DNA from: Sialis fuliginosa
Lineage: Eukaryota; Arthropoda; Insecta; Megaloptera; Sialidae
Direction of reading: 5' to 3'
Assembly (NCBI GenBank): GCA_961205875.1
Contig: OY540810.1
Coordinates: forward strand, 16,182,001 to 16,246,000
Length of the DNA: 64,000 bases
Under the pieces are notes generated by a model. The model was not told the origin of the DNA. It searched no databases and saw only the letters and a list, made by a program, of their open reading frames with translations. This document shows, piece after piece, positions 2,522 to 50,000 of the stretch. The position numbers and the translations under genes are program-made. The first letter of the stretch is position 1. Every line of letters starts with the position of its first letter.

Positions 2522-3778
2522 CTTACGAGAACTAGCACCTTTAAAATATCAGGAAAACTAACATATTTTAAAGAAAATTAACATGTTTAAAATATGCAGT
2601 GAGTTATCAAAAATGCTAGGTAACGTGGTGAGAAATAAAATGTGCTAATTTTCATGGCAAAATATCATACATGCTAGTTTTCGTAAGGAATAAAACGTGC
2701 TAGTCTTAATAACGCAATTGATATAATGTAATATTGTACTTGAAATATATAAATTTTGTGAATTAAGTGTAAAAAAATGTAAACCAAGTAATTTGTCATA
2801 GTTAATAAACATTAATTAAAACAATTTTGTATTTTTATTTCATTAATCTTAACGTAAGAATATTTTATTTATTCTTTAATAATCCGTGATGTTTTATTGT
2901 GTCTGACATAATTTGTGCATTTAATTTTTTGTACAATAAAAAATATTGTTCGACATAATAAAACATCATGGGTTGTATAGGTTAGGTTTAATTCCAATAA
3001 ACAGAAAACATATGTGGATTTCAAATATTCGTATACTGGTACATGATTGGTGCAGAGAATATATATACCCAACCAATCAGAACCGTCGCACCTCTTAATG
3101 TCAAACGATGTTTCCAGTAAAATAACGTTGAGTGTCGCTTCTGTATATTTATTATTCTGTGTTTTCACGTATTATTTGAAATTATTTTTATGTAAATTGA
3201 TTTTTCCCTTTATGTCATTCATATTTAATATTCAATAACAACTTTTAATTATTTCAAATAAATATAAATAACCATTTAATTAATTATATAAAACATACAA
3301 AATACTTATATTTTCTGAAAATAATTTAAAAATCATATTATAAAATGCATCCAACTATATAAAAATTTAATTATATTAGCGGGAATACAACTGTCAAAGT
3401 GCTTATTGAAATTTTTTTAAAGTAATCAGTGCTCGATTTGTTTCTAATTAATTTATTAAAAACGCAATTTTAAGGTAATTATATTTTTTACTCGCCTCTT
3501 AACATCAATATTATTTAAGTAATGATGATTTTTGAAGTTTATATAGATTCCTAAGCTGTTTTGAAAAATAGTTATCAAATTTGGCTTTATTCACTTTATT
3601 ATAATGTACTACTCACAGAATAAATATAGTAGGTACTACTGTCAAATTTTATCAAATCAGTTTCAATAACAATCAATGCATAAAATATTTTTTTTTATTT
3701 ATAAAAAATCTTACATAAAATCACACAACATTTAATCTATTTGTAATAATACTTAAATATTACAATAAATGTATCAGA
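2522..3778. other. AT-rich intergenic region, 3' of ZNHIT1
   Basis: No supported gene. Short frames on both strands (2869-3168 minus, 3047-3238 plus) overlap each other and have no known domain. A TTTATT run near 3690-3700 reads as AATAAA on the minus strand and would serve as the ZNHIT1 polyadenylation signal. Confidence 0.5.
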
Positions 3779-4296
3779 TCAAGCAGTCCACTTGAGGCAA
3801 CGCGTGTCCGTGTGAGTCTGTAGACACCTGATGCTACAATAACGGGCACCACAAGGAATGCACGTGTAACAGCTAAAGTTACCACAGACAGCACAAAACT
3901 TCCGGATGGGTAAATCAGAAGGACCTACTTGCGCTGACATATAGTTAGGAGGATCAGGATTATAGTTTTTTTCATCTTCCAACAGCTGTACGAATGTTTT
4001 ACGATATTTCTGTCGATAGTATTCTGCTGTACGACTTTTACGTTTACGACGCTGTTCTAAACTATCCTGTAAATAACAACAATGGTAATAGTTTAAAAAA
4101 TTGCAACAATTAAAATTTATTTTACCTGAAATTTAGGAGCTTTTTTGCTCATAACCAAGTCAGCATGTGGGTCTTCATGGAAGTTATCTTGTTCTAGAGC
4201 TTCTAAAGCTTTTCGTTGCCTTCTACGTCTCGCTGCTTCATCTAATACACGTTTTTTGTCAGCATCCTTAATACGACCCGACTCACGTGACGCCAT
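3779..4296 (-). CDS. ZNHIT1: Zinc finger HIT domain-containing protein 1 (SRCAP/SWR1 complex subunit)
   Basis: Two exons, 4126-4296 and 3779-4066, encode 152 residues (human protein 154). In the family this is the Vps71/p18Hamlet subunit of the SRCAP/SWR1 chromatin remodeller, which exchanges histone H2A.Z in the nucleus. The N-terminal part has a basic region and the conserved block LEALEQDNFHEDPHADL. The C-terminal HIT zinc finger begins FCAVCGNFSCYTCIPCGARY and ends with TRCLKWTA, with all the usual zinc-binding cysteines and the histidine. The start is MASRESGRIKD at 4294-4296; the frame is open further upstream, but only into the GTF2H5 coding sequence and without an ATG. The start codon follows the GTF2H5 stop by 13 nt, so it is probably translated from a shared mRNA. 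Confidence 0.95.
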
Positions 4297-4309
4297 TTTG
4301 AATTTGTGA

Positions 4310-7300
4310 CTAGGTTCCTTTCTCAGCAACTGGAAAACTTATCTGGTCCATAAGATCATCAATTTTAGCTTGTAATGTTTCGATAACGTCCGCCGATACA
4401 AATAAATGTGTCTCGTCTAAATCTTGGATAATAAATCGTCGGCCGAGTTTCAATGTTTCATCTAAATGTAAAAGGAACTGTTTCATAGTCTGGTCACTGA
4501 AAAAAATATTTAAATTCAGTGTTTACCTATACTAATAAATAAAGCGAGAAAGTTTGTGGGTTTGTCAGAGTAATCTTGAAAACTATTGGACTGATTTTGA
4601 TAAAATCTGCATCAATTTGTTCCTTGAAATCTCAGATAATCTATAGGCTACATATCATCACACTTTCCATGTAGTCCTTTCTAAACTATAAGATATATCA
4701 AAATTATGCTTCAATTATAGTTTTGTAACATGAAAGATGATTGATCTAAGCATTGTAATTTTATGTTGAACCAGTCATCTTTCATGTTATATTTTTTATT
4801 TTATTTATTTTTATTTAATTTATCAACAGATATAACTAGCCTGTAATTTTAAAAACATGTCAAAGCGCAAAGGAGTTAGTGCGGATGAGAAACGTGTACG
4901 AATGTTACAACTTTTCTATGAAAAAAAGGAATTTTTTCAATTAAAAGTCAGTATTTCTTATTTGTAACTTTGTATACGAATAATTATGTTATTGATTGTT
5001 CCAGGAATTAGAGAAGATCGCTCCAAAAGAAAAAGGAATCATTGCACAAAGTGTTAAAGATGTTGTGCAAACCTTAGTTGATGATGGTCTTGTAGATACT
5101 GATAAAATTGGAACTTCAGTTTATTTTTGGGCGTTCGCAAGGTATTTGTTAATAGAGGAATTTCATAAATAAATTTTGTTGTAATTGATTAATTTTTTTA
5201 TGACAGCAAAGCAAAACATACCAGAAAAAGAAAATTGAATGAATTAGAAGGAAGTATACAAGAAAACAAACAAAAACTGCAAAAAATAGAAAATAGCTTA
5301 GCGTCAATTAAAGTAAGTATTATAATTGAATTGGTGAGAAGAAGAATAGTACAGATTCAAATTCTGCTTTTTGTTGTTTTTTTTTACAAGAATTAGTTCA
5401 ATAAATGTAGATCAAAATATTGAGCATAAAAGCAATATTATACCGGCCTTCCTTCATTGTTTTTTTTATTTAATTTTCTATTCCTTCATTGGTTGCAAGT
5501 ATGTTTTAAAGAGTGAGTGGAAGAACAGTACCTGTCCAGCACTAGTTCTGTTTTTCTACTCAGCCGCTATGATGACCTTGGGTCTAACTGACTGTACTTG
5601 CTATACTAATATATATATATATATATAATATATATAGTGTTTATGTGTTTGACCAAAGTAATCTTGATAACTACTGGACTGATTTTGATAAAACATGCAC
5701 TAAAAAACTAGAGAGATATACCCACAGTAGCAACAGATTTTTATCAAAATATTTATGACCACTAGCATGTGTCTTAACTTCTTTTTTCAAATTCTTTAAC
5801 TTGTAATGTTTGTATAATACTACTTTTAGTTCAATTAAAGTGACTTTTCAGATAAAGTGCGAAGTTGAGAGGAAGAACAGTACTTGTCCAATGATTTTAT
5901 TAATTTTTTTTTACACTAACAAAATATTTGTAATGACCTGTGACTGCATTAACAGATCCTTGGGGACTGTGCGGAAGCAGCCGTAAAGTTAGATGGCTTC
6001 AAAGTTCATAAGTTGTAACCTGCAAATTTTTGAAACTTAAAACTTGATTTGAATTGAGAATTTTGGTTTATATAGTACTGTTCTTCTCACTGATTCAGTT
6101 ATAATAGGGTATTTGACCAAATTTAAAAAGGCTATGATTTAAACGGGCGGTAATGTATTACAGTTTCGGTCAGTATTAAAATAAAAATAGTAAGTTCAAT
6201 AACATATTGGATGATAAAATGTGAGCAGTAAAAAAATGGAAGCGAGCAGTAATATATTATGAAATGGGTGGTTGAATAAATACTTTGGGAAGTAAAATAA
6301 ATGATTGGGCAGTAACGCGTGAGCAGTAACTGAATCAGAATGGTCCGTTAAAAATATTGCGGTAAGCGGTAACCATTTTTTTCTGAGAAGGCAATGCGGG
6401 ACGGACTTTTTTTTAGAAATTTTATAATGTTCAAAAATAATTTTTTGTTTAAAAATAATAAATTTAATGTTGCACATTCATGATGATACCCGATTTTTAT
6501 TTATAATTAAAAGACCGGGAGGGGGAATCTTTTATGGGGCCCATTAACATATAATTTACCGCACACAATATAATATATATTTTTTACATATCTCTGTTAC
6601 AACACAAGGGAGAGGGGCAAGGGGCCCTGCCCCCTTATATTTTGGTAATCAGCAGGGGACCATATGGTTATTCCATAAATATTATATGTGAATGGCCCCA
6701 ATAAAAAAAACTACCCCCTCCTACCAAAAAATATCCTGGTTACACCAGTGCAGCAGGGGATCAAGTCCCCTTGCCCCCCACTGATTACACCGATGCACCC
6801 GCGCCTTACTGTCACGTAAGTCCATTTATTTTAACCAAAAGTCAAATAGTCAATAGTGTCAAATACCCTATTACTTTAATAATTATTTTAAAAACCTAAT
6901 ATATTCAATAAATAGGAGGGACGCGAAGATACCGAAGAACGAAAGGAAATATTAATAGATATCGAAAAATTGAAAGAAGAAATAGATGCTATATTGAAAG
7001 AAATACAAAAATATAAAGATAATGATCCTGAAGTATTGGAGTTTTTAAAGAAAGAAACAAAAGTAAGTTTCTTCTATATAGTTATTTTTTTTTATATCAC
7101 GATAGATAATAATTAAAATTGTATTTCAGTTAATAAATGAGGCAATAAATCGATGGACCGATAATATAGATGGTCTGAAATCATGGATTAAAAGTAAATT
7201 TTTCATTGAAGAGGAAACTTTAAATAAACAATTTGGAATACCGGCAGAATTAGAGTATATTGAAATCTAATTATTAAAATTCACGAAATGTATATGTTAT

Positions 7301-8460
7301 TGTAAAATATGTAATAATAAACCTAATATTACTGTTTTCTGACAATTTCTTTTAAACTTGAAGTACACTTGTCAATTTTTTCAACAATTGACTTAATCAA
7401 TGACACTGATAAAAAATTGTAAATGAAATATCTTTGATGAACAAAATGCACAGAATAATAATAATTAGTACAAAATCAGCACAATTAGTAATTATTTCAG
7501 TTTGCAAACATTAATATCCTTAGAAATTACCAAAAAATTTACAGAAAAATGCAAGGTATATATAAAGACAAATTAGCTTAGCTTCTTGACTAATCAGCGT
7601 TAACACGGGAATTGACGTCACCACGAAGACATATTTAAATGTTAGAAATGTATAAGAGATTATCAATTACAAAAATTCCTTTATGTATTCTTGTTTTTTT
7701 TTTTTTTATATTTTAACAACACATACAATCAAAGAAGTACAAATTCGACATTGCAAAATCATAAAAAAAGCTATCAGACAATTTGGTCTATTCGGGAAGT
7801 GTCATTTTTTCTATTCTTAAGTCGGCAAAAAGTTTTGTGATTCTGACAGCTTTTTATGATTTTGCAATATCAAATTTATACTTCTACGATTGTATATAAT
7901 GTTAAAATATAAAAAAAATACGAAACAGGAATTTTTTGTAATTGATATTCTATTATACATTTCTAACATTTGAATATGTCTTCGTGGTGACTGATTGGTA
8001 AGGAGCTGATGAGACTATCTTGTCTTTATATCAAAAACACTGTATACATAGACTAAGTGAGCCATAGCACTTTATGTAAATCAGCGTCAATCATAAATAA
8101 TAAGAGAAAGAAAATATTGAGTATCTACATGACTGGACTGTCGTTTCTGGAGTATCTTTATTCTTGTTCTTTTTTTTTCTACCGAGAGTTATGGTTTTCG
8201 GCTGGCTCACTGCCTCTATGTTATATTATCTCGATGCTTTAAATACCTTGAGAAAAATGTAACATGTTTCATTTTCAGTAATAAATCGAGCTTAAAATTG
8301 TCAAGTGTAAACTCGATTTTCAATCGTCAATTTTAAGTACCTAAAATTGTTGAAAAACTGATAAGTGTAACAAGCATTTAATATTTTTTTGTTAGCAATA
8401 TTCTGAATAATAAAATAAAACTTACCACTGCACAAGCACTCCTTTCATAACATTCACCAT
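4310..8460 (-). CDS. GTF2H5: General transcription factor IIH subunit 5 (TTDA/Tfb5), split around MND1
   Basis: Exon 1 (8426-8460, 35 nt) encodes [11 protein letters not shown] and the first two bases of a Cys codon, followed by GTAAGT. Exon 2 (4310-4496) starts after TTTTTTTCAG with the third base and continues [13 protein letters not shown] through [15 protein letters not shown] to TAG. The phases match and the joined product has 73 residues (human 71). TTDA stabilises TFIIH by binding p52 and supports nucleotide excision repair and transcription. The [16 protein letters not shown] and LMDQ blocks are family signatures. The 3.93-kb intron contains all of MND1 on the other strand, a Helitron-like fragment and a foldback element. 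The stop codon is 13 nt before the ZNHIT1 ATG. The 12-residue first exon is easy to miss; without it the first ATG would be at 4486. Confidence 0.93.
4528..4700. mobile_element. Helitron-like 5' fragment in the GTF2H5 intron
   Basis: The stretch beginning TATACTAATAAATAAAGCG, with downstream motifs such as GGACTGATTTTGATAAAA and ATAGGCTACATATCATCAC, is of a type dispersed in many insect genomes. A second, shorter copy begins near 5591 in MND1 intron 3. No 3' CTRR end was found nearby, so this is a fragment. Assignment to Helitrons rests on memory of similar insect sequences. Confidence 0.4.
4726..4789. repeat. Short hairpin just upstream of MND1
   Basis: The arms at 4726-4743 and 4772-4789 are inverted copies over 18 bp with a single difference (a possible G:U pair), separated by about 28 nt. 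It lies 67 bp upstream of the MND1 ATG and inside the GTF2H5 intron, so RNA from either strand could fold there. Function unknown. Confidence 0.6.
4857..7270 (+). CDS. MND1: Meiotic nuclear division protein 1 homolog
   Basis: Five exons: 4857-4946, 5005-5141, 5207-5312, 6916-7062 and 7130-7270, encoding 206 residues (human 205). MND1 pairs with HOP2/PSMC3IP and stimulates DMC1/RAD51 strand exchange in meiotic recombination. The N-terminus [18 protein letters not shown], the winged-helix block [10 protein letters not shown]...[15 protein letters not shown] and the GTS-YFWAF segment are family hallmarks. A long coiled coil (about residues 76-155) follows, then a C-terminal NRWTDNI...LKSWI and FGIP motif. 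All five exons are intact and join in frame. The gene sits antisense inside GTF2H5 intron 1. Intron 3 (1.6 kb) holds repeat fragments. An AATAAA-like signal lies near 7316. In insects that have lost DMC1 the role of MND1 is unclear, so germline expression is inferred from the family. Confidence 0.95.
5313..6915. repeat. Repeat-filled MND1 intron 3
   Basis: The intron contains related fragments around GGAAGAACAGTACYTGTCCA at about 5518 and 5870, and inverted pieces near 5335 and 6073 (tagtactgttcttctc). A TA microsatellite lies at about 5607-5636. G/C-tract repeat debris (GGGGGCAAGGGG and its complement) lies at about 6510-6790. No gene is visible. The fragments look like the ends of one degraded inverted-repeat element. 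Confidence 0.5.
7567..8030. mobile_element. Foldback element in the GTF2H5 intron
   Basis: Two arms of roughly 220 nt are inverted copies meeting near 7800. Matching blocks include CACCACGAAGACATATT with TGTTAGAAATGTATAA on the left and their complements on the right, and TGCAAAATCATAAAAA with its complement around 7755 and 7853. There is no coding sequence. Divergence of perhaps 15-20% suggests an old insertion. It lies between the MND1 3' end and GTF2H5 exon 1. Confidence 0.7.
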
Positions 8461-8969
8461 TTTTACTTTGAATGAACGTTGGCTGCACTGATGAATATTT
8501 ATTTAAATGTGTAGAATGAATTAGGAATGCATCTCTCCTTGTTTATACCATGTCATTGGCATGGGATAAAAATACACACGGAACCATACGCAGTATGAAG
8601 TATGTAATATAAAAGTTTACAAAAATAGACAAAACATAAATAAACCAGTGATAACTAAACAAATAGTTGTAGAAATTTATCATTTCGAATATTTATAACT
8701 AATTCGAATGTTGATTCATAGCGAAATTGTTGTATTTTATCTTTATTAAGTAATTCAAACTAAATTAATTGCGTTTATATCTTGCATTCGATGTTAGACT
8801 GTACATTTTATCGTTTTTCAATTTTATAATATTTTACGCAACTACCAAAATTTTGAACCTTGACCTTGTATTTTTTCACGTCGCCAGAGATTATTTTAAC
8901 TTTCCCCACCGTTTGCGTTCTTACCACATTTCGTTTTAAATATAGTTTAGTTGTGATAACTTTTAAAAA
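8461..8969. promoter_or_regulatory. Divergent promoter region of GTF2H5 and HADH
   Basis: The 509-bp region separates the start codons of two head-to-head housekeeping-type genes. It is AT-rich with no reading frame or obvious TATA box. An ACTTTTAAAAA run directly precedes the HADH ATG. Bidirectional promoter use is inferred from the geometry only. Confidence 0.5.
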
Positions 8970-10022
8970 ATGGCTCAACCTTTTGCATTGTTGAAAAGAA
9001 GTCTGTGTACCTCACCACACATTATAAAAAATGTTACAGTCATTGGAGGCGGACTTATGGGATCTGGTATTGCACAGGTTAATTTACATAATCATTTTTG
9101 TTTACATAATAGAGTTGTTACATCACATGTCTTTCTATGTAGGTCGCGGCTCAGACCGGTCATAACGTTGTCCTGGTCGATACAAACACTCCTGCTTTAG
9201 ATAAAGCAAACCAAGTCATTCACAGGAGCCTTTACCGTGTTTCCAAAAAGCTTTTCAAAGAAAAACCGACGGAAGGAGAACGTTTCGTCGCTAATGCCGT
9301 CGCTAATTTGACTTGCTCGTTAGATGCTCAGGACGCAGTCCGTGACAGTGACCTTGTCATCGAAGCGATCGTCGAAAACTTGGAAGTCAAGCACAAACTT
9401 TTAAAGTCTTTAGATGAGGTAATTAAATGAACTTATAAAATGTTATATTGACTGAATAAAAATATAAAAATTCTTACAGGCTGCTCCAGCAAAAGCGATA
9501 TTTGCTACAAACACCTCATCTCTTTCCGTCGCTGAGATTGCATCAGTGACAAACCGTAAAAATCGATTTGGGGGTTTGCATTTCTTTAATCCAGTGCCTG
9601 TTATGAAACTTCTGGAAGTCATACGGATTCCAGACACTTCAGATGAGACTTACGATGCTTTAATGGCATTCGGAAAAACTATTGGGAAAACGTGTATTTC
9701 GTGCAAAGATACACCCGGATTTGTAGTGAACAGGCTGCTTATACCGTACATAGCAGAAGCGATCCGAATGTACGAGAGGGGCGATGCTTCTGCTCGAGAT
9801 ATCGATACCGCAATGAAACAAGGCGCGGGTGTGCCCATGGGGCCCATAGAGCTTGCTGATTATGTTGGCCTGGATACAATCGGGTTTATTTTGAATGGGT
9901 GGCATCAGAAGTACCTTGATAATCCACTATTTAAACCTTCAGCGACCCTTCAAAAACTTATTTGCGAAGGTAAACTTGGAGTGAAAGCAGGAGAAGGGTT
10001 CTATGAGTACAATAAAAAATAA
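8970..10022 (+). CDS. HADH: 3-hydroxyacyl-CoA dehydrogenase, mitochondrial
   Basis: Three exons (8970-9077, 9143-9418, 9480-10022) encode 308 residues, close to the human 314. The enzyme oxidises short- and medium-chain 3-hydroxyacyl-CoA to 3-ketoacyl-CoA with NAD+ in beta-oxidation. The N-terminus ([15 protein letters not shown]) is basic with no acidic residue, as in a matrix presequence. The Rossmann motif [11 protein letters not shown] is at residues 26-36. Catalytic His162 (HFFNPVP) and Glu174 form the dyad, and Ser141 and Asn212 sit at the other conserved active-site positions, each offset by four from human numbering. The C-terminal helical dimerisation domain ends [14 protein letters not shown]. 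No missing residues. A polyadenylation-like AATAAA lies near 10062. Confidence 0.97.
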
Positions 10023-10380: not shown

Positions 10381-13300
10381 ATGGCGAAAATAAAAAAAAG
10401 ACCACAGAAGAAAACTAGGAAAGAAATTAGGAAAGAGAAACGCAAAGAAAAAAAAATACGAAAAGCGGAATTTTATACAAAAAAGAAAATAATACCTGGT
10501 AGATTTGTTTTGAATCCAAATAGACTTGAAGAAAATGCGGATAGATCTGATGAAGTTAAAAATCCGAAACCAAAAAACTACGAAGATAAAAAAACGGATA
10601 AGGTTACGATAACTTATTTTATTTTGTATTACATACCTGTATGTTTCCTAATATAAAAAAAATATTTGTTTTATTTTAATAGAATAACAGTGTTGGCGTT
10701 TTTGATAAATTATCTCAAGAGCATAAAAAAGAAAAACAAATAAAAAAGAAATTAGAGAAAGAAATGCAAAAACAAAGAAAAATGAAACTTTTAGAAGCAA
10801 ATCAAATGGAAGAACGAGAAATCAAAAAACTGGAGAAAAATTTGAAATTAAATAAAAAGAAATCAAAAAAAATACCTAAATCTTTCACTGATGACGGCTT
10901 AGACTGTATCCTTTTAATATCAATAATACTTTACTATTAAAGAACTAATTTTAAAATAAATTCTTAAAGGGGGAGTACTACTTTGTGAGCACGAAATCAA
11001 GGGTCAAAATTTTTTGCTTAAATTCCATTGAATATCAATTTTAAGATGTTTATATATCATTTAAACCACTAAAAAAATTGTCAAAGATGAATTAATACAT
11101 TAGATGTAACCGATTAAACCAATATAAAATTATGTTTTTTACAAAGTACTACCCCCCTTAACAAAATTCAGATATATTAGAACTTTGTGAAACAGAAACA
11201 ATGAAAGAAGCTGTCGAGAGTGAACGGCAACTAATCGATGCAACAATAGACAATGAATTTGAAAATGATTTTACGGAAGTTTTAAATAAATCTAAACTTG
11301 TTAAAAAACAAACGAAATCTACTGATAATAACAGAGATGAAGAATCTAACAATAGCGATATGAATGAAAATAACTTCAGTGATATGGATGAAGATAATTC
11401 TTCTCAAAACAATGATTCAGGAGACGAAGAAGATTTGAGTGATGTGGACATGGATGAAGAAAATTCTATGGAAGATAATGATTTAGAAGAAGATAGTGAT
11501 GAAAAAAGTGATAATGAAGATGATAATATTATGAATGAAAATGAAGAAAATAATAAGAAAGAATTTTGGGAAGATATTTACGGTAGAACGAGAGATAAAG
11601 ATGGAAATATTGTAGAGGTAGGTCACTACAATAATTCTTAAACTGTGAAATGGAATCCTCAAAAGATCACATAAAGATTTTGAGGGGTTTTAGAAAATTA
11701 TAATTAAGGAGTCGTTGTAGTTCAAGAGTTAAATAATTTTATTTTCAGAAACCAAAAGATGTGTATATTCCACCGGCAGTTAGAGCCCGAATGGCGTCAA
11801 GTAATAACTGTGTTGAAGATGATCGTTTGAAGAGACAGATGAAAGGTAATAGTTGAGCAACACCACTCTAGAATTTTGAAAAAATCGTTTTTTTTTGCTT
11901 AAACAATGCTTTAACATCATAAAAACAATATGCACTTGGTTCTATAGTAAAAAAAATCACAGTGCAGGTGCTTAAGGTTACTCAAAAGGTCACCAGGGTA
12001 CACTATGTAAAACTTTACTGCCGTAAAACTTTAAATGCGTTTTTCTTTAAATCACTTTTTTCAATCTTAGCGAACACATTACATCAACACGGTTGCATGG
12101 ATCAGTTTGAAATTTTGACAGTAGCTTCACAATTAGATCCTTTATAGAAGTACATAGAGGTTTTTCGATTCGATGTAAACTTTTTACTTTATAAACAATT
12201 TACTGCTTTTTTCAAAAGTGCACCATTGCTACAAAATTTAATTAAATAAAAAATCCCTACGTACTTCTATAACCATTAGTATAATAATATAGATTTTTTT
12301 TTTTTTTGCTTCAGGTCTTATATTTTATGAGAAATTTGTCCACTATTGGATGTGTTTTTTTTAAAAAGATCTTTTTGAAGATTGGCTCTTTCGCCGCCGT
12401 TTTCTACAAAAATACTAATAATAATAAATTTTTTCTATACTTATAATAATGTATGCTGAATAAACCTTCCAAAAAAGAATTCCCATTCCTTTTATTATAC
12501 TCCCAAGAAAAATCGTCAAAGTTCGGGCTTTTTTTGGTCACTAGAGTGGTGTTACCTCTTAAGTCAACTCAATAAACAATTTAAAAAAAACAGTGATTTA
12601 CAGATAAATGTGAAAAAAAATTAAATCTACACAAAGTAAAAATGTAGCAGAATTTGTATTTTTTAATATTTAATTCAACTACTATCATAAAAGCTTATTT
12701 TAACATTTTGAAAATTTTGAGAAACCATATAGATCTTGGCTTCTGGGTGTAAGCCGCGTCGGTTTGGTCGTGTTATCGGCCAACGTTTCGTCACACATTG
12801 CAGTGGACATCTTCAGGGCACTTCTAAAAGTGCTTTTTTTAGAAGAGCCCTGAAGATGTCCACTGCAATGTGTGACGAAACGTTGGCCGATAACACGACC
12901 AAACCGATGCGGCTTACACCCAGAAGCCAAGATCTATGTCAAGACCACCGCGGAAGCCTCAAGATTTGAGAAACCATGATTATCAAAATGATTTTTTTAC
13001 AGGATTGTTAAATCGTTTAGCAGAAAGTAATTTGCATCATATAAGTAATGAAATAGAAGCTTTATATTCGAATCACAGCCGTTATTCTGTTAACAGTCAT
13101 TTGACGACGCTCATCCTTGAAGCTTTAATAAGTCCAATACTCGCACCTGTTAGGCAAGTCGCTGATTACGCACTATTATTGGCATCGTTACATGCTAATG
13201 TTGATACTGAGATTGGTACGTTAATAATTTTTGATTGTGTTAGAAATTATTCTAATTTTAAAAATTATTATTTTTCAGGTGCATATTTTCTTCAGTCGCT

Positions 13301-16217
13301 TATAAAACAATTTAACAAACTGTTTAAACAAAAGCAGTCAGTTGAAAATAAAGAATTAGAAAACGTTGTTAATATTCTTTCGGAACTTTACAATCTTAAA
13401 GTAAGTTAACTTATGTAGAATTGTAGAACCCAAAATAACTAACTTCAGAAAACAAATGTCAGATATAAGGAATTAAAAAACTACGGTTAGGTTAGTACAT
13501 TATAGATTTCTTAATTACCTAGGTAATTGGTGCGGTTCTAATACATGACATTTTAAAAGTATTATTAAATCTCGAAGGAAGCGGAGAGTTGACGGAACAA
13601 TACGTAGCGTGCGCGATAGCGATCCTACGTGCGACTGGTCCGTTATTACGTCGTGCAGATCCCGTTGCATTGAAAGATACGTTACTTAAGGTTCAAAATA
13701 TAATCGTTGAAGACAACTCGTCACAAACAGGGTAAGTTTTATATAATTTATTGCAAATTTGATTGAATAACATTGAATTTTCAGCACGAGGTTAAAGTTC
13801 TTATTGGATATTTTGGTATCGATTAAAAATAACAACTTTACAAAAATTCCTAACTTTGATCCGGATTTTTCCGAACGTTTACGTAAAGTTTTGCGTTCTG
13901 TAATACGAAAAGGGAATTCAGTGACACAATTAAATATTTCATTAAATGATTTATTACAAGGTACATGGTCAGTGAAATTTAAATGAAAATGTTCATTTTA
14001 AATGATATTTTTTATAGCGGAAACTCGCGGTCGATGGTGGGCTGTCGGTTCAGCATGGACAGGAACAATCGACACTGTCCCGAAAGAAGTTAAATCAACG
14101 GTATCACAGTTTAGTCAACAACTTTTACGACTGGCCCAAGATCAACGTATGAATACAGATTCACGCAAAAATATATTTTGTATTCTGATGTCTGCAGAGG
14201 TACGTTAAGTATAGAGCTGTACTAAAGTACTTAAGGTTTATTGGCCTAGCACCCCGTAAGTTGTGAACTATCTGTTTTTTTTTTAATAAGAAAAAAAAGA
14301 TTTGATTTTGAAAAATTTAGTTTTTAATTTATATGCAAAACACATGTACATTTAATAGAATTTTTTACATTGTTAATAATTAAAAGTAAAAAATTAAATA
14401 TAATTTGGTGACCACAGCATATCTCATACAAAAAATTGTGCAACAGTGAATGGAAATATATATAAAATATATATAAAATTCCCAGTACATAATTGCGCAC
14501 GTTGTCTGTAAGTCGTACTCTATTACTACCAACGTTGTCATGGCAGAGTGTTATCTTAGTAGTTTGTCATTACTTTGAATAAACCTGATTCTGAAACCAC
14601 ACGTGAATGTATATGTTTTATAATTTTTATAGTATTTAAAAGGGTTGAAGTTTCAAATAATCAGTGTTTAAAACGTCTTTGTATAGAATTTTTGTGTAGA
14701 ATTTCAATAAATTGAGCACTTCCGGCAAGTTCTCTCATTTATCGTGTATTAAAAACTCTATTTTTAATATCCAGTTACTCAAAAACCATACGTCCAATAT
14801 TAAAAAAAAAATAGTAAAATATATAATATATATATTTATATATATATAATATATATATTTTAGACTTTTATCTGTACATTGCTCTAACGATCGAATAACC
14901 TTAAGTATTTAAAAAGTATTTTTTCAGTTTCAAATTTATACAAATGTAGTACTTACAATTACATAAATTTAAGTACAATTACAGAAAGTATTTATTTCTA
15001 CTTAACACATTCAATGCAAACAAATTATTGAGAACATTCGTACGCGGTTGACAAATTTTAAATAAGAAAAATAACTAAAAAAAGTGTATAGTAATACTCT
15101 TTATAATATAGGTACAACAAAATAACCTAAAAATGAAAATATAAAATCAATTTATTAAAGAATATTAGGTATATATATCGTACTAATTCACTGAACACGG
15201 CTACTATGTTCACCACGTGGCTACAATATTTGTATGAACACGGGAGCCATGTTCACCGCACACTATGTTAACGTTGTACTGTTAAGTACATTTATTGTAT
15301 AAAGTACTTGTACTTATATACATATTTTTTTGTATTTGTGCACAGCTCTGCTAACTAGTATACAAGTACTTCACGTGTCTCAACATTTATCTTTATAACT
15401 TTATTATGGAATGGAATTTTCAAACTTTTTTTTAATACTTGTAAAAATATAGAGAATAATAGTCAATAATTAAAAAAAACGTTTTTTTGAATATTCTGGA
15501 AATATCTAACCCCTTAATAATATTTATCTGCTGTGGAACTGTAATAATTAATTATTACCCTTCTTAGGATTATCTTGACGCATTCGAAAAACTCTTACGT
15601 CTAGGATTACGTTCACCTCAAGACCGTGAGATAATGTACGTTCTTTTGCACTGCTGTCTAAGAGAAAAGCAGTTCAATCCATACTACACTCTAATCGCTC
15701 AGAAGTTCTGTGAATACGACAGGAAATATCAAGTAAGTCTAATTTGAATACGTTTACAAATCTAACAACTAAATTTTTCAACCCACAGATGGCCCTACAA
15801 TGCAGTATCCGAGACCGAATACGGACTTTCAATGAATCTCAAGACAAGGGTCGGCATGAGGTGGTCAACCTCGCTCAACTACTCTCGGATCTTCTTATAA
15901 ACGATACGATACACACAGGTTTTGTTCTACGTGCACTGAACGCTAATGAAATAACGGATATAACTCGTGCGTCTTTGAGAGTGTTACGTCTGAGCTTGTT
16001 GAACATTCTTATACACGCAGATTCCGATAGCGTTGAGCGGGTGTGGCATAAAACAAAAGTGCCGCAAGTACGGACGCATTTAAGATTGTTTATTAAACGA
16101 TTTATTTTGTGTGAAACGGTTAATGCTAAGTTAGACGAGGATAAGCGGAGTTTGTTGAAGAGAAGAGCTGCGGCTGCAGAAAAGATATTTTGCGGTGAAA
16201 ATGTTATACAGTTTTAA
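10381..16217 (+). CDS. NOM1: Nucleolar MIF4G domain-containing protein 1 (Sgd1 family)
   Basis: Eleven exons: 10381-10602, 10683-10905, 11172-11617, 11749-11845, 13003-13215, 13279-13400, 13523-13731, 13785-13960, 14018-14199, 15568-15732 and 15789-16217. They encode 827 residues (human about 860). The family acts in the nucleolus in 40S subunit biogenesis and binds the RNA helicase eIF4A3. Order: a very basic N-terminus (KKRPQKKTRKEIRKEKRKEK), a Lys/Glu-rich stretch, a strongly acidic Ser/Asp/Glu segment (about residues 235-285), then EFWEDIYGRTRDKDGNIVE and the conserved YIPPAVRAR. The MIF4G domain starts about residue 330 (LLNRLAESNLHHI), with LLRRADP and TRGRWWAVGSAW as clear signatures. 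A C-terminal MA3 domain (about 630-745) begins DYLDAFEKLLRLGL. Introns 2 and 4 carry transposable elements, one ending 25 bp before an acceptor; the frame is intact throughout. Confidence 0.95.
10964..11161. mobile_element. piggyBac-like MITE in NOM1 intron 2
   Basis: A TTAA is present at both ends (10964-10967 and 11158-11161). The TIR runs inward as AGGGGGAGTACTACTTTG on the left and the complement CAAAGTACTACCCCCC on the right, with small differences. Length is about 200 bp with no coding sequence. TTAA target duplications are the hallmark of piggyBac. The right end is about 10 bp from the exon 3 acceptor. Confidence 0.65.
11859..12553. mobile_element. Non-autonomous TIR transposon in NOM1 intron 4
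   Basis: A perfect 13-bp terminal inverted repeat is seen: AACACCACTCTAG at 11859-11871 and CTAGAGTGGTGTT at 12541-12553. The 695-bp interior is AT-rich with no transposase-like frame. The left end is only 13 bp from the exon 4 donor. Target-site duplication and superfamily are not clear. Confidence 0.65.
12716..12977. mobile_element. Penelope-like foldback insertion with 13-bp TSD
   Basis: The direct repeat TTTGAGAAACCAT occurs at 12716-12728 and 12965-12977 and flanks a 236-bp insertion. Inside, arms of about 90 bp are almost perfect inverted copies (left about 12732-12818, right about 12844-12935) around an AT-rich loop. Both arms carry the block CCTGAAGATGTCC...GACGAAACGTTGG. The right arm has an extra tail of roughly 28 nt. 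The layout, a truncated inverted piece plus a full arm with a tail and a long TSD, matches the element at 18778-19001 and suggests a retroelement of Penelope type. It ends 25 bp before the NOM1 exon 5 acceptor. Confidence 0.7.
14200..15567. other. NOM1 intron 9, no gene
   Basis: A 1.37-kb AT-rich intron. It holds a TA-rich microsatellite (about 14817-14862) and short repeats of the phrase around GTACTTAAGGTT. No reading frame or element ends were recognised. Confidence 0.5.
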
Positions 16218-28434: not shown

Positions 28435-31400
28435 CGTTAGTTACCTTATCACTCGAGAACCACTTATCCGATTGACGTGTTTTTTTTTTTAATTCATAGG
28501 TACGTTCTCTGGCCAGGTTATAGGCTATATTTTTTTAGGTTAGATAACATAACAACTAAGCAGTGACAATAATAGTAAATCAAGTCGGAAAAATTTTTGC
28601 CGTCGGCGCGCTGTTTTGTAATACGCTGCCTAAACCGTTCAATATAGAATAAAATAATGTAATAAAGAATTGTGTAGAATCAAAAGTTCTTCAATTAAGT
28701 CCGCGACACCATATGTCTAACTTTTATATTTTAGCCACAATGACTGCTTTTATGTTACAAAAAAAACATAAAATATTTGGGTTCTGTTTACATGGACTTA
28801 TGACCTGCAAAACATTAATCCATATCGAAATAAATGATTTCATCGTCATAAGCACTTAATGTAGATATAGTTTGCCCTTTACAGCATCCAATTTGGTCGT
28901 ATAGTTTAGAAAATATCTTAAAATATATTTATAAAGGTAACATCTTAAATGTATGGTGTCGTGCCGCATCGAAGCGAGTACATCAGACTGGATTCGCGTA
29001 CGCTTCGGAGTCCCTCGGCTGATCGTTTGTGTTTATTTTGTTTTCAATAATTAACATTTAAATTTAAACAGAACACAAATTATTTGTACTTTTTTCTTCT
29101 GATTCGTTTTTGTTAGGTAATTTAGGTATTGATAAATTATTATTACAATAATAACTAATCGTGTTTGTACTTAATTAATTAAACTATATTTTTCAAAAAT
29201 CCTAAACAATAATTCCGTAGTCTACGCGAGCGAAGCCGCGTGGGCCCAGCTAGTATGGTGATAAAATGACCAATGGATTTGTAATTTTTTTAGTTTTTTG
29301 ACAAAAATTTTTTAAATGGAATAAAAAAAATCGTTTTTTCACAATTTTGTTTCCAAATATTAATTAATTGTTTTTATGTTCGTACAAATCATAAGAAATA
29401 ACTATATTATACAATACTAGTCTGAGTTTTATTTAACCCCACTGCTACGTATTCACGTCATTCCCTCGACTGTGCATTCCGAAACAGTCACAAATAAATA
29501 ATAATTTTACAAATAATTTTGTACGCGATAAAATTTTAAGATAACATACTCTCGCAAATCTGCCGCCCCCTAAAATTTGCTGATCTAGACCCGGGCCTAC
29601 TTGGCATGTTGAGAAATCCGTCACTGGTTGTATGTATACTTGTTTATAAACCACTTGTTAAAACCGAGGGGCCTAGTAATTAAGTGGTCTGTGCGCCCTT
29701 AAGAACTCGTTCAAAGGCGGAGAGTGTGCTGGGGAGGTATGGGGGGGGAGGGAGGTCGGTCGGTGCAACAACATAAACAATAATAATTATGTAGTTGTTA
29801 AATCACAGATAGGGGACGACGCTACATTGGTTAAATTAAATAACCCAATACAAAGCTGTTTGGTCGCTCGGACATGGGTAGAATTTAAAACACTCTTCTT
29901 GCTTGCTTGCTGGTGTTGTATAAGCTAAAAATAAATAAATATTTTTTAGATGTGGTTACTTGTATTTAATTAATAAAGGTCGTTTTATTTGTTTCTTGAT
30001 ACACAGTTGGGTATTTGACTAAATTTAAAAATATATTGTAAATTGTGCGTATAAGTGGCATATAATAGAAATGTCCAAAAATAATTTGTTTAAAAATCAA
30101 ACCATAAATACACATTTTCGTAAATATCTCGCCACCTACCGGATCCATTTTTTATAAAAATATGTATTTCTTTCCACGTAACTAAAATATATTCAGAATA
30201 TGCGCCAAATCGGACTATAAATACACATTTTCGTAAATATCTCGATCTCAGCGCTACCTACCGGGTCCCAAAAAAGATAAACTTATCGGAGCACCAAATG
30301 AACATATAGTGTCGATACGTCCAGTGGTTTAGGCGTGATGATCTCACATAAATATGCACCGACGTTTTTAGGGTTCCGTAGAAAACTAGGAACCCTTATA
30401 GTTCCGTTCTGTCCGCTCGTCCCCCGTCTATGTAAATTTTATATCGATTTAAATTTGGTATATGAACGTAGATTGACAACTCAAAAACAGATGTGATGAC
30501 ATTTTTGAAAAAAAAAATTGTTTGGGCCCCATTATCTGAAATTATTTTTTTTCACTTACCCCATTGATAGGTCTGCTAAAATGCAACAAAAAGTGTCAAA
30601 TAACCTTTTGATTTTAATCCTTCAGTCACGATATATTTGATTTTCAATGTCGTTATCAGAAAAAAAATCTGAGAAAAATTCAGAATGTAGTTTTTAATTA
30701 GTACTTTCAATGTAAAATTATAGTTTATGAAAAACTTTGAAATAACTGTTTTATAAATCGTAGTGAGAATGACTGCGTACCCAACACGTAACTGCAAACT
30801 TGACAATCATGCATGGTCCATCTTTTTGTACAAGCAGTATGTAGCGTCTGTAGGATAATTTTGCGCAATCACTTTAATTGTACAAGCCACCTGAAGATGA
30901 ATTAAATTTAAATCATGCAAGCTTGACAAGCTTAGCAAGCGTGCTTGTATAAGCGAAACTGAACGTGTGTACTAAGAACGTGCAGGTTTGTACAACCAAA
31001 CGTCAGTCGTAAGTGGGCTCTACAGGTTGCTGTGAATCTTTCGCGGGGGGTTATAGCTTCTCTCATGATCGTATCCTTTTTAATAAAAGGTGACAAAAGA
31101 TTCAAATAAGTTTCTTCATTCATTCTGAGATAATTTTGCCAATCATGCGGATATATCTTCAATTTACTCAGTAAATTAATGTGGGAATATGTTTTTCTTT
31201 TCATTAACCACTCTTCACACCACGATTCTTCTTTCGCGTTTTCCTCTTGTGGATAAGGCGAAAAGCAGCCAAAACGAGCGCATCGTCGTCCGAGCTTAAG
31301 GAGTTTCCTGAGATACAATCGGGCGCAAAAGTACATAAAATTTTTAATTCTCAAATATCTACGTATTACAAATAAAAACCATGAAGATAATTGATAATAA

Positions 31401-34400
31401 CAATAAGTTGCATTGAATACTCACTTATTTTTAACTATTTTTCAACTTTGTAGACGTTTTTACATTATATTTGCATATTTTCTGTTTTAAGAAACAAAAC
31501 TTTTGACAGTGAAAATGTCCTGAATCTATCTTCTTGAAACTAAATTTTTCTAATAATTATTAATTTATTTATTGACTTACATTATTAAATCTCATTTACA
31601 TATCATTAAAAAGTTAAGTGTATAGTCTATATACTACAAATACAAATATTTTTTAATTATTGACGTTAATATTTAGCATTCATAGAAAAGAGTCCAAGCG
31701 CAACCTGTCGCTTGTTTAATAGATCAGTGGCGAAGCGTCCATGGAAGCAGTGCTTCCCTTACTTTATGGGTAAATTAATACAAATATGTGTTTTCAATTA
31801 ATAAATAATTTAAAAATATTATTAGAATATTAATCTTTATGCGCAACTCAAACATTTTAACCAAAAATAGCATTTAATATTAATTTACACGCTCAACTAT
31901 AAAACTATAATACCTCTACGTCTTATTTTCTTGTATTTTAGTCGATATTTGTATGACGAGTTGAATTCAACTGCAGGAAATTTCACTAAAAAATTTCGAA
32001 TTTTAGATTTCGTTAAAAGTATGTTTATTGTATAGAAAATGACGTGAAAAGTTGAATGCTTCAAACCGCAGGTCTGTATCTTAAACCGTTCTCGAAATAT
32101 AGCCTCTCAAAGTTTCAATTTTTTCAAAATTTTGAAGAAAAATGGCCCTAACTTTTGAACGCGTGGTCGGAATTGATTTTAGTTGACGGATTTGCAATCA
32201 GTGTATCAAAATCTATATAATGACATGTATAATACCTTAAAACTCGAAAAAAAAATTCGAGAAAAATCGAAAAAATGTCGATTTTTGACAAAAAAAATTT
32301 TGTCGGATTTTAAAGTATTATACATTAGTCCACGGTATTTAGATTAAAATTCGCCAAATAGAAGAAAAAAATTATAAAGTTTTGATACTTTGTCCACGAA
32401 CTCTCAGTAAGGTTCGGAATAAGAGCCCGAAAAGTTCCCACCTAAATCGTGGATGGAACATCCCCTTTCACGTAAAAAACTACCCCCGGAATGAAATTTA
32501 TCCCAGTTTTTCCCATTTTTCATCCGAACGGCTGTTCGGAGAAAAAAATACTACAGGAATTAAATATTCTACATAAAATTCGACGTAAAAAATGTCATGT
32601 GCACTATTCGGTTAATTCCCAGCCTACTCTCGCAATCGTTGCTCAAAGTGAAGGGTACTTTTGGGAACGCAGCGAAAAATCGGCGTAACAATAGTTTTCA
32701 ACATACATATTTCCAAAACGGCCGATTTTACGTAAAAAATGATTATGATAAAAATTATAGAACTTAATCTTCTCTATGAGATCCATGCACCACGAATTTT
32801 TTTCAAATTTTTTTATTGATTTTTTGCCCATTTTTCACAAACGCGCATGCTATTATTTTACATGGAGAAGATTTTTTAGTAAAAATTATCATCAAAACAT
32901 GGTAAAATATGTTGTCTATGTGTGTGCGTATGTGTATGTGTGCCTGTCCCCTGAATTTTTGTCGCACGCTTAACTCATGAACCACTGGACCGATTTTAAT
33001 GAAACTTTCTTTGTTGGTTCTGACTAGTAGATGATCCCATATAAAAATCATCAAAATCATGTGGAAGGTAAGGAGGTAGTACCTCAAAATCGGTATTTTT
33101 TCAAAGTATCTCAAAAGGATGCATCGTTTGTTTAAATTGTATTATATTTTATAAAAAAAAAGGAGTGTACAATGTACATTTGTGAAAAAAGGCCAAAAAA
33201 TCAATGAAAAACGTTTAAAATAAAAATCGTAGCATATGAATCTCATAGAAGAGATTCAGTTCTATAATTTTCATAATAATAATTTTTTACGTTAAATTCA
33301 CCGTTACAAAAATATTGACGGTGAAAAATCATGTTATGCAGATTTTTCGCTTCGTTCTCAAAACTATCCTTCACTTTGAGCTTCAATTGCAAGAGTAGGC
33401 TGGTGATTAACCGAATAGAACATTATGACATTTTTTACGCAGAATTTTATATAGAATCTTTAATTCTTACTATATTTTTTTCTTTGAATGACGGTTCGGA
33501 AGAAAAATATCGTAGAAAGGTTTACGAAAGGAAATATATTTAAATCCACAAAATATTAGTTCGTTTCATAAGTTGGTTGTCCAATAGAAATATGCCATAA
33601 TTTTATCTCTTCGATATATGGAGTTTATCAACAACATTCATATTGGGTATTTTACCAAATTAAATCTTGACAGACAGTTATCATAGGTGCTACAAAATGG
33701 GGTTAAAATGAAAACGAACAACATTTTATCATTTATTTTCACTACAGAGGCACAATGTCTACCTTACATCTTCAAAATTTTAAACCAGAACTGTCAAGTG
33801 GGTTGCTGAAAACGATCCGGCTGTATTAAAATTGGTTTGCGCTGCTTAATTTATGCTTATCTACTTTCTTTGTCAATCCTAACAAAATAGTGCTCTGTCA
33901 AGGTCATAGGGGCCCCATTATCCTAATGTGCCCAGGGCCTCCAATAGATTAAAGACGGCCCTGCTTATACTCGTGACATTTTTCTAAGTTTATAATCATA
34001 CAATAATCAACACTGAAAGTGTTTTTCATGACGGACACACCTATAAACATAAACTATAGAGATTTCACTTAAAACAAAACAATTACATGACTTACAAAGC
34101 GCAGCTTGCCTTATTTAATATTTATATACCTATCAAAATAATTAACGTTAAGTATGTTTTACAATGTGTTTTTTATTAGTTTCAATAAATGGAATCGTAA
34201 TATTCAAGGTGTCAAATATTTAAATGGTTCTATGGGAAATGAAGATGATACCTACGTCGATTTTTTTAGGAAAGAAAAATTATTAAAGTTTGCTGCTTGT
34301 TCGAAAATCAAAAGAGATTTGGTAAAAATAGGAATTATAAAGAATACGTTTTTGAATTTTCCGCATAATGTCTTTGGGTACTATCAGTTAAAAACAGAAA

Positions 34401-44000: not shown

Positions 44001-47000
44001 GAAACATCTTCACATACGTGAGTGTAGGGTCACGCCCAGGGGCGCATTAAATTATAACGTATGGGAAAGATAATAGACCTATAAGGTACTGGCACCAGTT
44101 ATGACCGGTATAAGAGTAAGAGTTATTGTTTTTGTGATTGACGGGCTTCTTTTTTGTAATTATCATGAACTCATATTACTAATAAAACAAGTTACTCTTT
44201 AATTAATCAATTTAATTACCAAAGTCTGCAAATATAGTTTGTTTTTTAAATTATAGCCTTTTATTTTCTTTAAGTTTTTTTTCTCCAGTAATGGATAAAG
44301 TAAAACCAGTAATAAGCACGTGGTGATGGACACTTGCTAATGATTACAAAATGATAAGTACTACGATACAAAAGATATAAAAGAAAGAATCGTCAAATTT
44401 GAAACATGCTATGATAATATAATAATTAATAAATAATCATCAAATCACGCTGTAAGACAGTTAAATGTATATAGATTAATATTCAGAAATGGTAGCAATC
44501 AAATATCAACAAATATTTCTAATTCAGTACATTTAATTATTAAGGAATATATTGATCAAAAATGCACTTGTAAGTGGCTCCAAACAGTCCACGTAGTACG
44601 TACTTTGAAACCCTTATGACATACACTCGTGTATGTCTTGACCGATTTTTGTTTGTTTCTGACCATGGACTTCAAAAAGGAGGTGTTTTTCAATTTTGCT
44701 GTATATATTTTTTATGTCAGTTGTATGACTGTTACACATACTTTACTAATATGACTAAAAAACGAAACTATAAATGGCTATATGATGACAAAAATCTAGT
44801 TTTGGAGATATATACTTTCTTTTTATAAATATTTTTCGAAAACGGTTGATCCTATAACAAATGGACAAAATATTATTCGTGTATTTTGTGTCATATAATC
44901 TTCTACAAGAAGCCAACTCGGAAAAAATTAAAGAACAAAAAATACTTGTTAAAAATCGGCGGGTCTACTGACCCCATACACCCCTAGTCTAAATTATTAT
45001 TGTTTGATACTGGATATTAATAACACTTATTAATAATAAATTTCATAACTATGTATATTAAATAAACAATAATTTTGAGCAAAATATTTGGAAAGCTGTA
45101 ATTCCCTCACGAAGAATTTCCGTATACATGTTCATAAGAATTTTTTTGCTTAAAATAACATTCTCTATCTATTGTTATTTTTTTACACTAATTGTAAATC
45201 ATTCTGTATTATAGAATAAAATGTATTAAAATAAAAATGTTTTATGTCCGGTATTAAGAAATTGCTTGATTTTTTTTAAACAGTGGTAATATATGTATAA
45301 TAATGTAAATGTTATGCATTTTATGAGGTACACTTGGTAGCACTTATTTTAAGTCGCTGATTTCTCAAAGTCATTATATGTTTGATTTCATTCGCTACAT
45401 CTGTAAGTGGTTGTCATTTATATTTAATACTTATTTATTAATGTTATTGTTGCGTTAGCTGGTAATCCAGTGATTTTAACTCGACGAGTAAAAATTCCGA
45501 AAAACACTGCTGAAAGGCTTAGCACTTTACAGAAACGGTCTCCGTCACCGCTTCGACCTATGTATTATATGTGATTCAATATAAATGGCATGTTAGATGC
45601 GTCGAAATGGCGCTGCGTTTTGACGCAATTAACATGTAATAGATTTGCAAGGTCAAAGCGGTGACGGCCGTTTCTGTAAAGTGCCAAGGCTTAACTCTGT
45701 GCCGTGTCACACGTATTAAGAAGTATTGCGAATTAGTATTTTCTAATAAATTTTTTAAAGATATATCTAAACTGATTGTGAGATCAAATATTGTTCTGCA
45801 TCAAAGATTGTTCGAAAATTATGCATGTCACTCAAAATATCTTGGCGTGTCACCTCTGACACGTGTATCAGATATCATAGGTTACTCATCACTGACTGTA
45901 ATCGAAAGAAGGCAAATACATATATATTATAGATTGATTGATTTATAATTAAACCAGTAGTTCTCAATAATTTTTATTTTGTAGTAAATTTTGTGAAAAT
46001 CCTGTAATCTTAATCTTGGATTATGTCTATTTCAATTTATAACACAGCCACACACAAAAAAGTGTGTGATACCAAAAAAGCGACCTATATAGCATTGTAG
46101 TATTGGTCAAGTATAGTCGAAATCCATGATACAAATATACATGTATCTTTCCACCATGGTCGAAATCCAAATTTTTGGAATTTTTTGCTTCCAGTTTTTT
46201 TTATTTGAGCTTAGGTTGAATTTTTCCAAGTTGGCTAAACCCAAAATTCAAGCTCAAATAAAAAATAACTGGTATGCAGAAAATTCCAAAAATTTTGATT
46301 TCGACTATGCTCAATCAATACTACAATGCTATATGGGTTGCTTTTTTTGGTTTCGCACACTTTTTTTTTGTGTGGTTGTATAATTAAACGACCAAAACGT
46401 CGCAAATTTCATCCGATAGCCAAAAATCATTGAGCTAAAACATTAATTTATGATTACAGTGGGAATACCGGCAAGTATCCGTGACCCGCGTCCCCGGGTA
46501 CGGTTTCGGTATCGCCGTATCGGGCGGTCGTGACAACCCCCACTTCAGCTCTGGGGACCCTAGCATAGCCGTCAGCGATGTCCTCGCACACGGCCCCGCC
46601 GAACGCTTGCTCCAAGTCAACGACCGGATCCTATCTGTCAACGGTGTCTCCTTACTGAACGTCGACTATGCCACAGCCGTCCAGGTCCTACGAGACTCCG
46701 GCGATACCGTAGTCCTATCTGTTAAACGCAGGGCCCCGCCACCTTCACCAGGGGCACCGACTAGGATAACTCTAACGCGGGCCGGCAAAAAAGATGATTT
46801 TGGAATCGTCATCGGGTGTAAGTTATTCGTTAAAGAAATATCATCAAAGGCGCGCGACCAGTTAGCGCTTTCTAACCAGCATCTGCAAGAAGGTGATATT
46901 GTAACACGTCTACACAATACAAGTTGTGGTGATACTATGTCGCTTAAAGAGGCTCGCAAGATTATGGATAGCTGTAAGGAACGGTTGAGTCTGGTTGTTA

Positions 47001-50000
47001 CGAGACCGCAGCCGAACACACCACCGGGTAAATTCGATACGAACGGAGATAGGAACGTTTTAGACGAAGTTGCAGGACCTCCGTTAGGGTACTCGCAGCA
47101 GAATCTATATGTACAGCCCCCGACGAGGCATCAGAGGGGCCCCAGTAACCAGTCGCATCATGAAAACCAGTAAGTTACAATTATTCAGTTAATCATTACT
47201 AACTTTCTAACTATATTTATGTTATTTAGCAGTGGAATAGAACCTCCAAGACCGCCACCTCCTAGGGCAGACGCTCTGATGAATCCAGGGCGAAGTCCTT
47301 ATGATGAAGATCCTCTAGTGACAAGGAGAGGCGTCGGTATCGCACACCATCCACGGTTAATAGCATTTCAGAAAGAGGGATCTGTAGGAATACGACTGAC
47401 CGGAGGGAACAGAGCTGGGATATTTGTTACAGCCGTGCAACCAGGAAGTCCTGCTTCTTTGCAAGGTTTACAACCTGGGGATAAAATTTTAAAGGTATGA
47501 ATATTATCAGTTATTGTGTAAAATGAACTAATTTTCAAATTTGTATTCAGGTAAATGACATGGACATGGCTGGAGTGACCCGTGAAGAAGCCGTATTGTT
47601 TTTGCTGGGTCTACAAGATCGGATAGAGCTAACGGTTCAGTTATGTAAAGACGAATATGACGGTGCAGTTGCTGCGCAACAAGGCGACAGTTTCTACATC
47701 AAGGCACATTTCCATTATGAAACTCCAGCAAAGGGAGAAATGTCTTTCCGTGCCGGTGACGTCTTCCATGTGGTTGATACTCTATACAACGGAGTCGTCG
47801 GATGCTGGCAAGTGTTCCGCGTCGGCCGCAATAACCAAGAAGTCCAAAAAGGAATCATTCCAAATAAAGCACGTGCTGAAGAATTAGCGACAGCGCAGTT
47901 CAACGCTAGTAAAAAAGACGGCGCGAGCGGCGAGTCCAGAGGAAGTTTCTTCAGACGGAGAAGACCGCAGCACAGACGATCAAAGAGCCTCGGGAAGGAA
48001 CACTGGGACGATATATTGTTCTCTGACGGGACAAGTAAATTCCCTGCATACGAGCGTGTTGTACTGAGACACCCTGGTTTCGTCAGGCCTGTCGTGCTGT
48101 TTGGAGCGATCGCCGATATCGCTCGCGATAAGTTGCTACGTGATTTTCCTGACCAATTTGTGTCACCGCGTACGTATATATATATATATTTACAGCGATT
48201 CATTTCTTTAATTGAATGTTTTATTTTAGAATCGGATAATGAAACAAACAGCAGCAACAAAGGGGGGGCTCCTCACATAATCCGACTGTCTGCAATACGC
48301 GACGTGATGGCAACAGGAAAACATGCCCTCCTAGATGTGACTCCCGCAGCTGTCGAAAGACTCAACTACGCCCAGCTTTACCCAATAGCGGTGCTACTGC
48401 GTGCCGATTCCAAGCTGGTCGTCAAACAGCTCAGACAAGGGTTGCCCAAGACTGCCCATCGAAGTTCTAAGAAACTGTTAGAGCAGAGCGCTCGGTTAGA
48501 ACGGTCGTGGGGTCACCTGTTATCTGCTACTATTCCATTAAGCGATGCCTCGGATCATTGGTATCGGAAGTTACGTGAGATACTTGATCGGCATCAAGCT
48601 GCTGCTCTGTGGACCGCAGAAACTAAGGTAGGATACATTTATTTGGTCGTTTTGTTGATAAAAGGTATATTAAATATTAAAAGATTAAAATATGTATCTA
48701 TAGTAATCACAGCCAAAGTAATCTAGTAATCATGTTATATGTAAACTTTGGGCTCCCGTTTTACCCCCTTTTAGATCTTTTTTAAAAAATCCGGTCTTGT
48801 CACTTTTCTACAAATCGGACAGAGAAAATATATCAAAAAAATCAGGCTTCTAACTTGTATGAAAGTGGGAGAAATTTGTATACCTGAGTTAGTGAGGATA
48901 CTTCCTAGAGATATATGATTATAATTAAAACATAAGTTATCTATGTTGTAAATAAATAATTGTTTTCTTATGATTTTTGATAGCAACTGGTGATTGGGAT
49001 GGTAATCAACTTTCGTAAAGGTTAGAAGATATATACGATACTATATGTATAGTAAATGTAATGTATACGTATGTGTATTATACAATATATAAATGCATCT
49101 CTTTAACCGTTAACCTCATTCTACCGGCCGTCACGGCCATACACAAATCAGTTGTAGTTTGACTTTCGCTGAGAGTGTTTTTCTGTCAGTTTTTAAAGTT
49201 TTTTATTTTAACTGTCACTATATATTGTACTTAGGTATATAACATACAGTAATGTCCAAAAAATTAGCCCCCCCAAATGCATATTTTTAGTTAATTTTAT
49301 GTGCAATCGTTTGATAGTCTTATTTTGTCGTTTGATAGTAATTAGTTTAATTAAATTTTAATAAACAAACATGAAAAAGTTAGCCCCCCCCCCATCTTTG
49401 ATTATAGGTTTCATTTTTGTTTTTAAGATTGATTTTTATTTTAAAAATCTATCGTTTGATAGTTTTCACCTTTGCAGATTTTTAACATTTTAGTTTAACA
49501 ACAATCAAATATTCAAATTTCCCGCGTATTCGTTTTTAAAATTGTAGCCCCCCCCCCCCAAATGCATATTTTAAGTTAATTTTATTTGCAATCGTTTGAT
49601 ATTTGTTTGATAGTGTTTTATAGTCTAATCTTGTCGTTTGATAGTTATTCCTTTAATTAGTATTAATTAAATAACTTTTATGAGAAAGTTAGCTCTCCCG
49701 CATTTGATTATTGAGTTCATTTTGGGTAAACAAGATTCCTTTTTATTTAAAAATGTTTGATATGTAGTACAAACCTGTCGTTTGATAGTTGTTATTTTCG
49801 CAGATTTTTAACATTTTTGTTGAACTACTAATGAATATCATCAGAGGTGGGGGGGCTAACTTTTTCATGAAATTTGTTTATTAAAATTTAATTAAATTAT
49901 TACTATCCAATGACAAAATAAGACTATCAAATGAATATCAAATGATTGTACATAAAATTAACTAAAAATATGCATTTGGGGGAGCTAAATTTTTGGACAT

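Follow-up and report, generated by a model that had tools for sequence, protein, structure and literature searches.

With a probability that we put at roughly 0.85, a minus-strand locus in the megalopteran Sialis fuliginosa is the arthropod Tfb5 (p8/TTDA)–ZNHIT1 (Dmp18) bicistronic gene, with an independent MND1 gene in its intron. The locus lies in a 64,000-nucleotide stretch of contig OY540810.1 (positions 16,182,001 to 16,246,000 of the forward strand), which was analysed as a whole and is referred to below as the window; all coordinates are those of the window. A single minus-strand transcript would begin upstream of 8460, be spliced over intron 1 (8426 to 4496) and bear both frames in order. 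GTF2H5, also known as Tfb5, p8 or TTDA, would be read first from the cap, and ZNHIT1 would be read mainly by ribosomes reinitiating after the 73-codon first frame, possibly with contributions from leaky scanning or from a shorter transcript. MND1, which is intact and lies on the opposite strand in the host intron, would be an independent gene.

Two frames in tandem on the minus strand

The spliced frames of the locus were re-derived, and the exon coordinates given in the initial annotation proved correct. The ATG of GTF2H5 is located at 8460-8458, and the coding part of exon 1 (8426-8460, minus strand) is adjoined at 8426 by a GTAAGT donor. From there the frame runs into exon 2 (4310-4496, minus strand), which is preceded at 4496 by the T-rich CAG acceptor ATTTTTTTCAG and is coding up to the stop TAG at 4312-4310. 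The spliced coding sequence of 222 nt is translated into 73 aa without interruption. The Pfam Tfb5 model (PF06331) matched this translation with an E value of 1.5e-28, and the PDB entry 'General transcription factor IIH subunit 5' matched residues 1-71 (E 3e-24). Since the PDB match starts at residue 1 and continues across the junction, the 35-nt coding part of exon 1 is genuine and is joined to exon 2. The exon had been described as 35 nt long; its coordinates hold, but this length is that of the coding part only, and the 5' untranslated region comes in addition.

ZNHIT1 is encoded by two exons on the same strand, which together give a product of 152 aa. The coding part of exon 1 covers 4126-4296, with the ATG at 4296-4294, and the coding exon 2 (3779-4066) contains the HIT zinc finger and ends with the stop TGA at 3781-3779. 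Pfam zf-HIT (PF04438) matched the product with an E value of 4.1e-9, and the PDB entry 'Zinc finger HIT domain-containing protein 1' matched residues 4-151 (E 2.4e-46). On the 3' side of the gene there are two candidate polyadenylation signals of the minus strand, both recognized by motif only, namely an AATAAA at 3694-3699 and, nearer to ZNHIT1, an ATTAAA at 3731-3736.

An intact Tfb5 frame is therefore followed by an intact ZNHIT1 frame on the same strand, and it ends ahead of the ZNHIT1 start with a short gap of 13 nt (4297-4309, minus strand) and no overlap. It had been claimed that there is no room for a polyadenylation signal between the frames. In a scan for AATAAA and ATTAAA, neither motif was present between 4122 and 4794 of the minus strand. 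Intron 1 of GTF2H5 does have minus-strand AATAAA motifs, for example at 4795-4815, so that premature transcript ends are possible there. The accompanying claim that there is no room for a promoter stands for the 13-nt gap alone, but does not extend to its surroundings, as exon 2 of GTF2H5 or the interval 4497-4856 could contain a ZNHIT1 start site.

The identities proposed for GTF2H5, ZNHIT1 and MND1 were borne out by the Pfam and PDB matches, which for all three products exclude chance open reading frames. Likewise, the anatomy together with the published work on the pair lends good support to the proposal that a single mRNA encodes the two small nuclear proteins. On these grounds we infer a shared GTF2H5-ZNHIT1 mRNA in this species, with the two frames probably lying on one messenger RNA. 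An assembly artefact is scarcely credible as the source of either the nesting or the tight spacing, considering that the splice signals are correct, the phases match, all three frames are intact, and the PDB match of GTF2H5 spans the exon junction from residue 1.

Relatives of ZNHIT1 exon 2 were searched for in genome contigs and in viral contigs. In the genome contigs, 83 pattern matches led to one locus, which was on a contig named flavobacterium. This candidate was rejected as a relative: in a comparison with all three proteins, its sole similarity was a weak stretch (43% over 37 residues) that lies in a continuous bacterial frame without a HIT finger, indicating a chance match. The viral contigs gave five pattern matches and no relative. 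As for RNA genes, there were 0 Rfam matches at gathering score and 0 ARAGORN genes within the window.

MND1 in the host intron

Intron 1 of GTF2H5 (4497-8425, minus strand) is 3929 nt in length and contains MND1 on the plus strand. An exon search from 4857 resulted in one model, in which the coding span (4857-7270) is made up of five exons (4857-4946, 5005-5141, 5207-5312, 6916-7062, and 7130-7270) encoding 206 aa, and 4/4 introns are of the GT...AG form. The frame is intact and carries the Mnd1 HTH domain (PF03962, E 1.4e-28, model positions 1-60/60) and the C-terminal leucine zipper with capping helix (LZ3wCH, PF18517, E 9.6e-18, model positions 1-55/55). The PDB entry 'Mnd1' matched residues 5-205 of the product (E 1e-32). 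On the 3' side of MND1, a candidate polyadenylation signal AATAAA, assigned by its motif only, is located at 7316-7321 on the plus strand. The coding sequence lies entirely within this one host intron; its span takes up 2414 nt of the 3929 nt and leaves 360 nt on the side of exon 2 and 1155 nt on the side of exon 1. The initial annotation had placed a complete plus-strand MND1 inside GTF2H5 intron 1, antisense to the host, and this was confirmed as anatomy.

The nesting of MND1 is that of an ordinary opposite-strand intronic gene, which is a common kind. According to the available passages of PMC3786989, intronic genes account for approximately 6% of D. melanogaster genes and are often opposite in direction. 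The same passages quote an estimated conservation of only 20-34% for intronic gene relations among Drosophilidae, and report one nested pair that was not retained in four Lepidoptera. No report of MND1 in a Tfb5 intron was found in the literature searched, of which subscription papers were mostly outside the scope.

The interference between MND1 and host transcription that had been suggested is speculation. In its functional form, germ-line transcription of MND1 would disturb the host pre-mRNA and thereby lower p8 and ZNHIT1 there. MND1 sits entirely within the host intron and is encoded on the other strand, and in fly p8 mutants the differentiation of germ cells is arrested in meiosis (PMC5090060, abstract), so that a germ-line dose effect is conceivable, and nothing more. 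However, the coding exons of MND1 are clear of those of the host, intronic genes on the opposite strand are a common finding, and the available passages of PMC3786989 describe the tim2/2mit pair as one for which no shared function was found. We therefore regard such coupling as very unlikely. It is a shade less likely again that the nesting is conserved in the insects that keep MND1 and that meiotic MND1 transcription tunes the output of p8 and ZNHIT1 in the germ line; the nesting would matter only if it were conserved and regulatory. The reading that we retain is that of an independent MND1 gene in the intron of a bicistronic host.

The host intron also contains two repeats. One, at 7617-7991 in the part separating MND1 from GTF2H5 exon 1, is a long near-palindrome that is 75% identical to its own reverse complement over 397 aligned columns, and which appears to resemble a fold-back transposon or MITE. 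A direct repeat of approximately 60 nt with 85% identity occurs in the interval between GTF2H5 exon 2 and MND1 (4552-4611) and in MND1 intron 3 (5639-5699). It is probably a scattered mobile-element remnant, and no third copy was found within the window at E 1e-4.

On the other side of GTF2H5 exon 1, a 3-hydroxyacyl-CoA dehydrogenase gene is located on the plus strand within 8461-10022, with 3HCDH domains in 9468-10019 and a likely ATG at 8970. It stands head to head with GTF2H5, and as the start codons are 509 nt apart, the two genes may share a two-way promoter. Elsewhere in the window, successive plus-strand frames at 46454-48726 carry a PDZ domain and then SH3 and guanylate kinase domains, a set that we take to be that of a ZO-1/polychaetoid type protein. 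A 569-codon open frame at 57997-59706 has DnaJ, zuotin-homology and C2H2 zinc finger domains, presumably like DNAJC21; after it, at 59981-60586, comes a DUF938 frame. The plus-strand frame at 12894-13409 had a weak MIF4G match (E 8e-8), and a Pfam scan of the frames 15714-16214 and 30935-31420 gave no match.

Translation of ZNHIT1

The spliced message, read from the start codon of GTF2H5 to just before that of ZNHIT1, contains seven AUGs, of which four share the GTF2H5 frame and three share another. All seven frames close at least 13 nt before the ZNHIT1 AUG, and thus none of them overlaps it. Three more AUGs, 72 to 96 nt upstream of the GTF2H5 start, would belong to the message only if it reached that far. 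The starts of GTF2H5 and ZNHIT1 share an A at position -3 and a G at +4. A scanning ribosome would have to leak past a strong start and then six more AUGs; for this reason reinitiation is favoured, and we give about even odds that it is the main route to ZNHIT1. TGGGA is a ribosome-binding motif of viral termination-reinitiation; a motif search showed that it is absent from the exon 2 part of GTF2H5.

Reinitiation after long frames is called 'presumably very rare' in the available part of one review (PMC5972666). In the passages of another (PMC4705651), the predicted limit for reinitiation is 55 codons, and a counter-example of 102 codons is given alongside. Drosophila cells are also the source, according to these passages, of two factors needed for reinitiation after upstream frames with a strong context.

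The main rival to reinitiation is a shorter ZNHIT1 transcript. The locus would then consist of two overlapping units, with ZNHIT1 starting either inside exon 2 of GTF2H5 or within 4497-4856, perhaps at a two-way promoter shared with MND1, and any bicistronic RNAs would yield GTF2H5 only. A promoter could be housed in the 360 nt that separate GTF2H5 exon 2 from the MND1 ATG, and on the long message ZNHIT1 has seven AUGs ahead of it. Published fly mutants, as described in the available passages, fit separate expression too: the partner was still normally expressed when the coding sequence of p8 carried a P insertion (PMC7013941), and after a 224-bp deletion removing Dmp18, the Tfb5 transcript was still intact (PMC9514664). 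However, passages of the same two papers describe the pair as bicistronic, and a silkworm EST carries both frames (PMC2276209, as far as its passages go). In addition, part of the putative promoter stretch (4552-4611 of 4497-4856) is the repeat that recurs at 5639-5699. On this balance, two overlapping units are unlikely, and a single transcript bearing GTF2H5 and then ZNHIT1 is the reading that we prefer.

The Tfb5–ZNHIT1 pair in other arthropods

The pair has been described before. In Drosophila, the gene for the ZNHIT1 homologue Dmp18 is CG31917. Its conserved upstream frame, 73 aa in length, was identified as TFB5, and the Ka/Ks value was 0.00 for this frame against 0.09 for the main one; among the cDNAs that contain both frames, the most distant was the Bombyx mori EST DY230769 (PMC2276209, available passages). 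Dmp18 is called bicistronic with Tfb5 in a passage of PMC9514664, and a passage of the review PMC7013941 states that the gene is bicistronic in 'Drosophila and all arthropods'. In the available text on the duplication of CG31917 in a stalk-eyed fly (PMC2737001), the bicistron is unmentioned, and the terms bicistronic, dicistronic and Dmp18 are absent from the abstract and passages of the fly p8 mutant paper (PMC5090060).

Since the pair is already published as bicistronic, the shared mRNA here is not a discovery. The locus is a further instance of the known arthropod bicistron, for which later papers cite Herrera-Cruz et al. 2012 as the source in the fly, and it adds one more species for a bicistronic gene that is reported as general in arthropods. 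The Tfb5–ZNHIT1 bicistron links a subunit of TFIIH with one of a chromatin remodeller. The locus is also useful as an annotation check, because gene predictors may omit one frame or break up the host gene at MND1.

Compared with known systems, the same gene pair is found in the same order on one transcript in Drosophila Tfb5 (p8)–CG31917 and in the silkworm EST, and the first frame is 73 aa in length both in the Drosophila gene and here (PMC2276209, passages). Intron 1 of the Sialis gene is 3929 nt in length and holds MND1; the fly and silkworm passages mention neither such an intron nor a nested gene. The 2mit gene in tim2, as described in passages of PMC3786989, is likewise a whole protein-coding gene in an opposite-strand host intron. 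Unlike such insect nested genes, however, MND1 has a host that is a bicistronic gene with a coding first exon of 35 nt.
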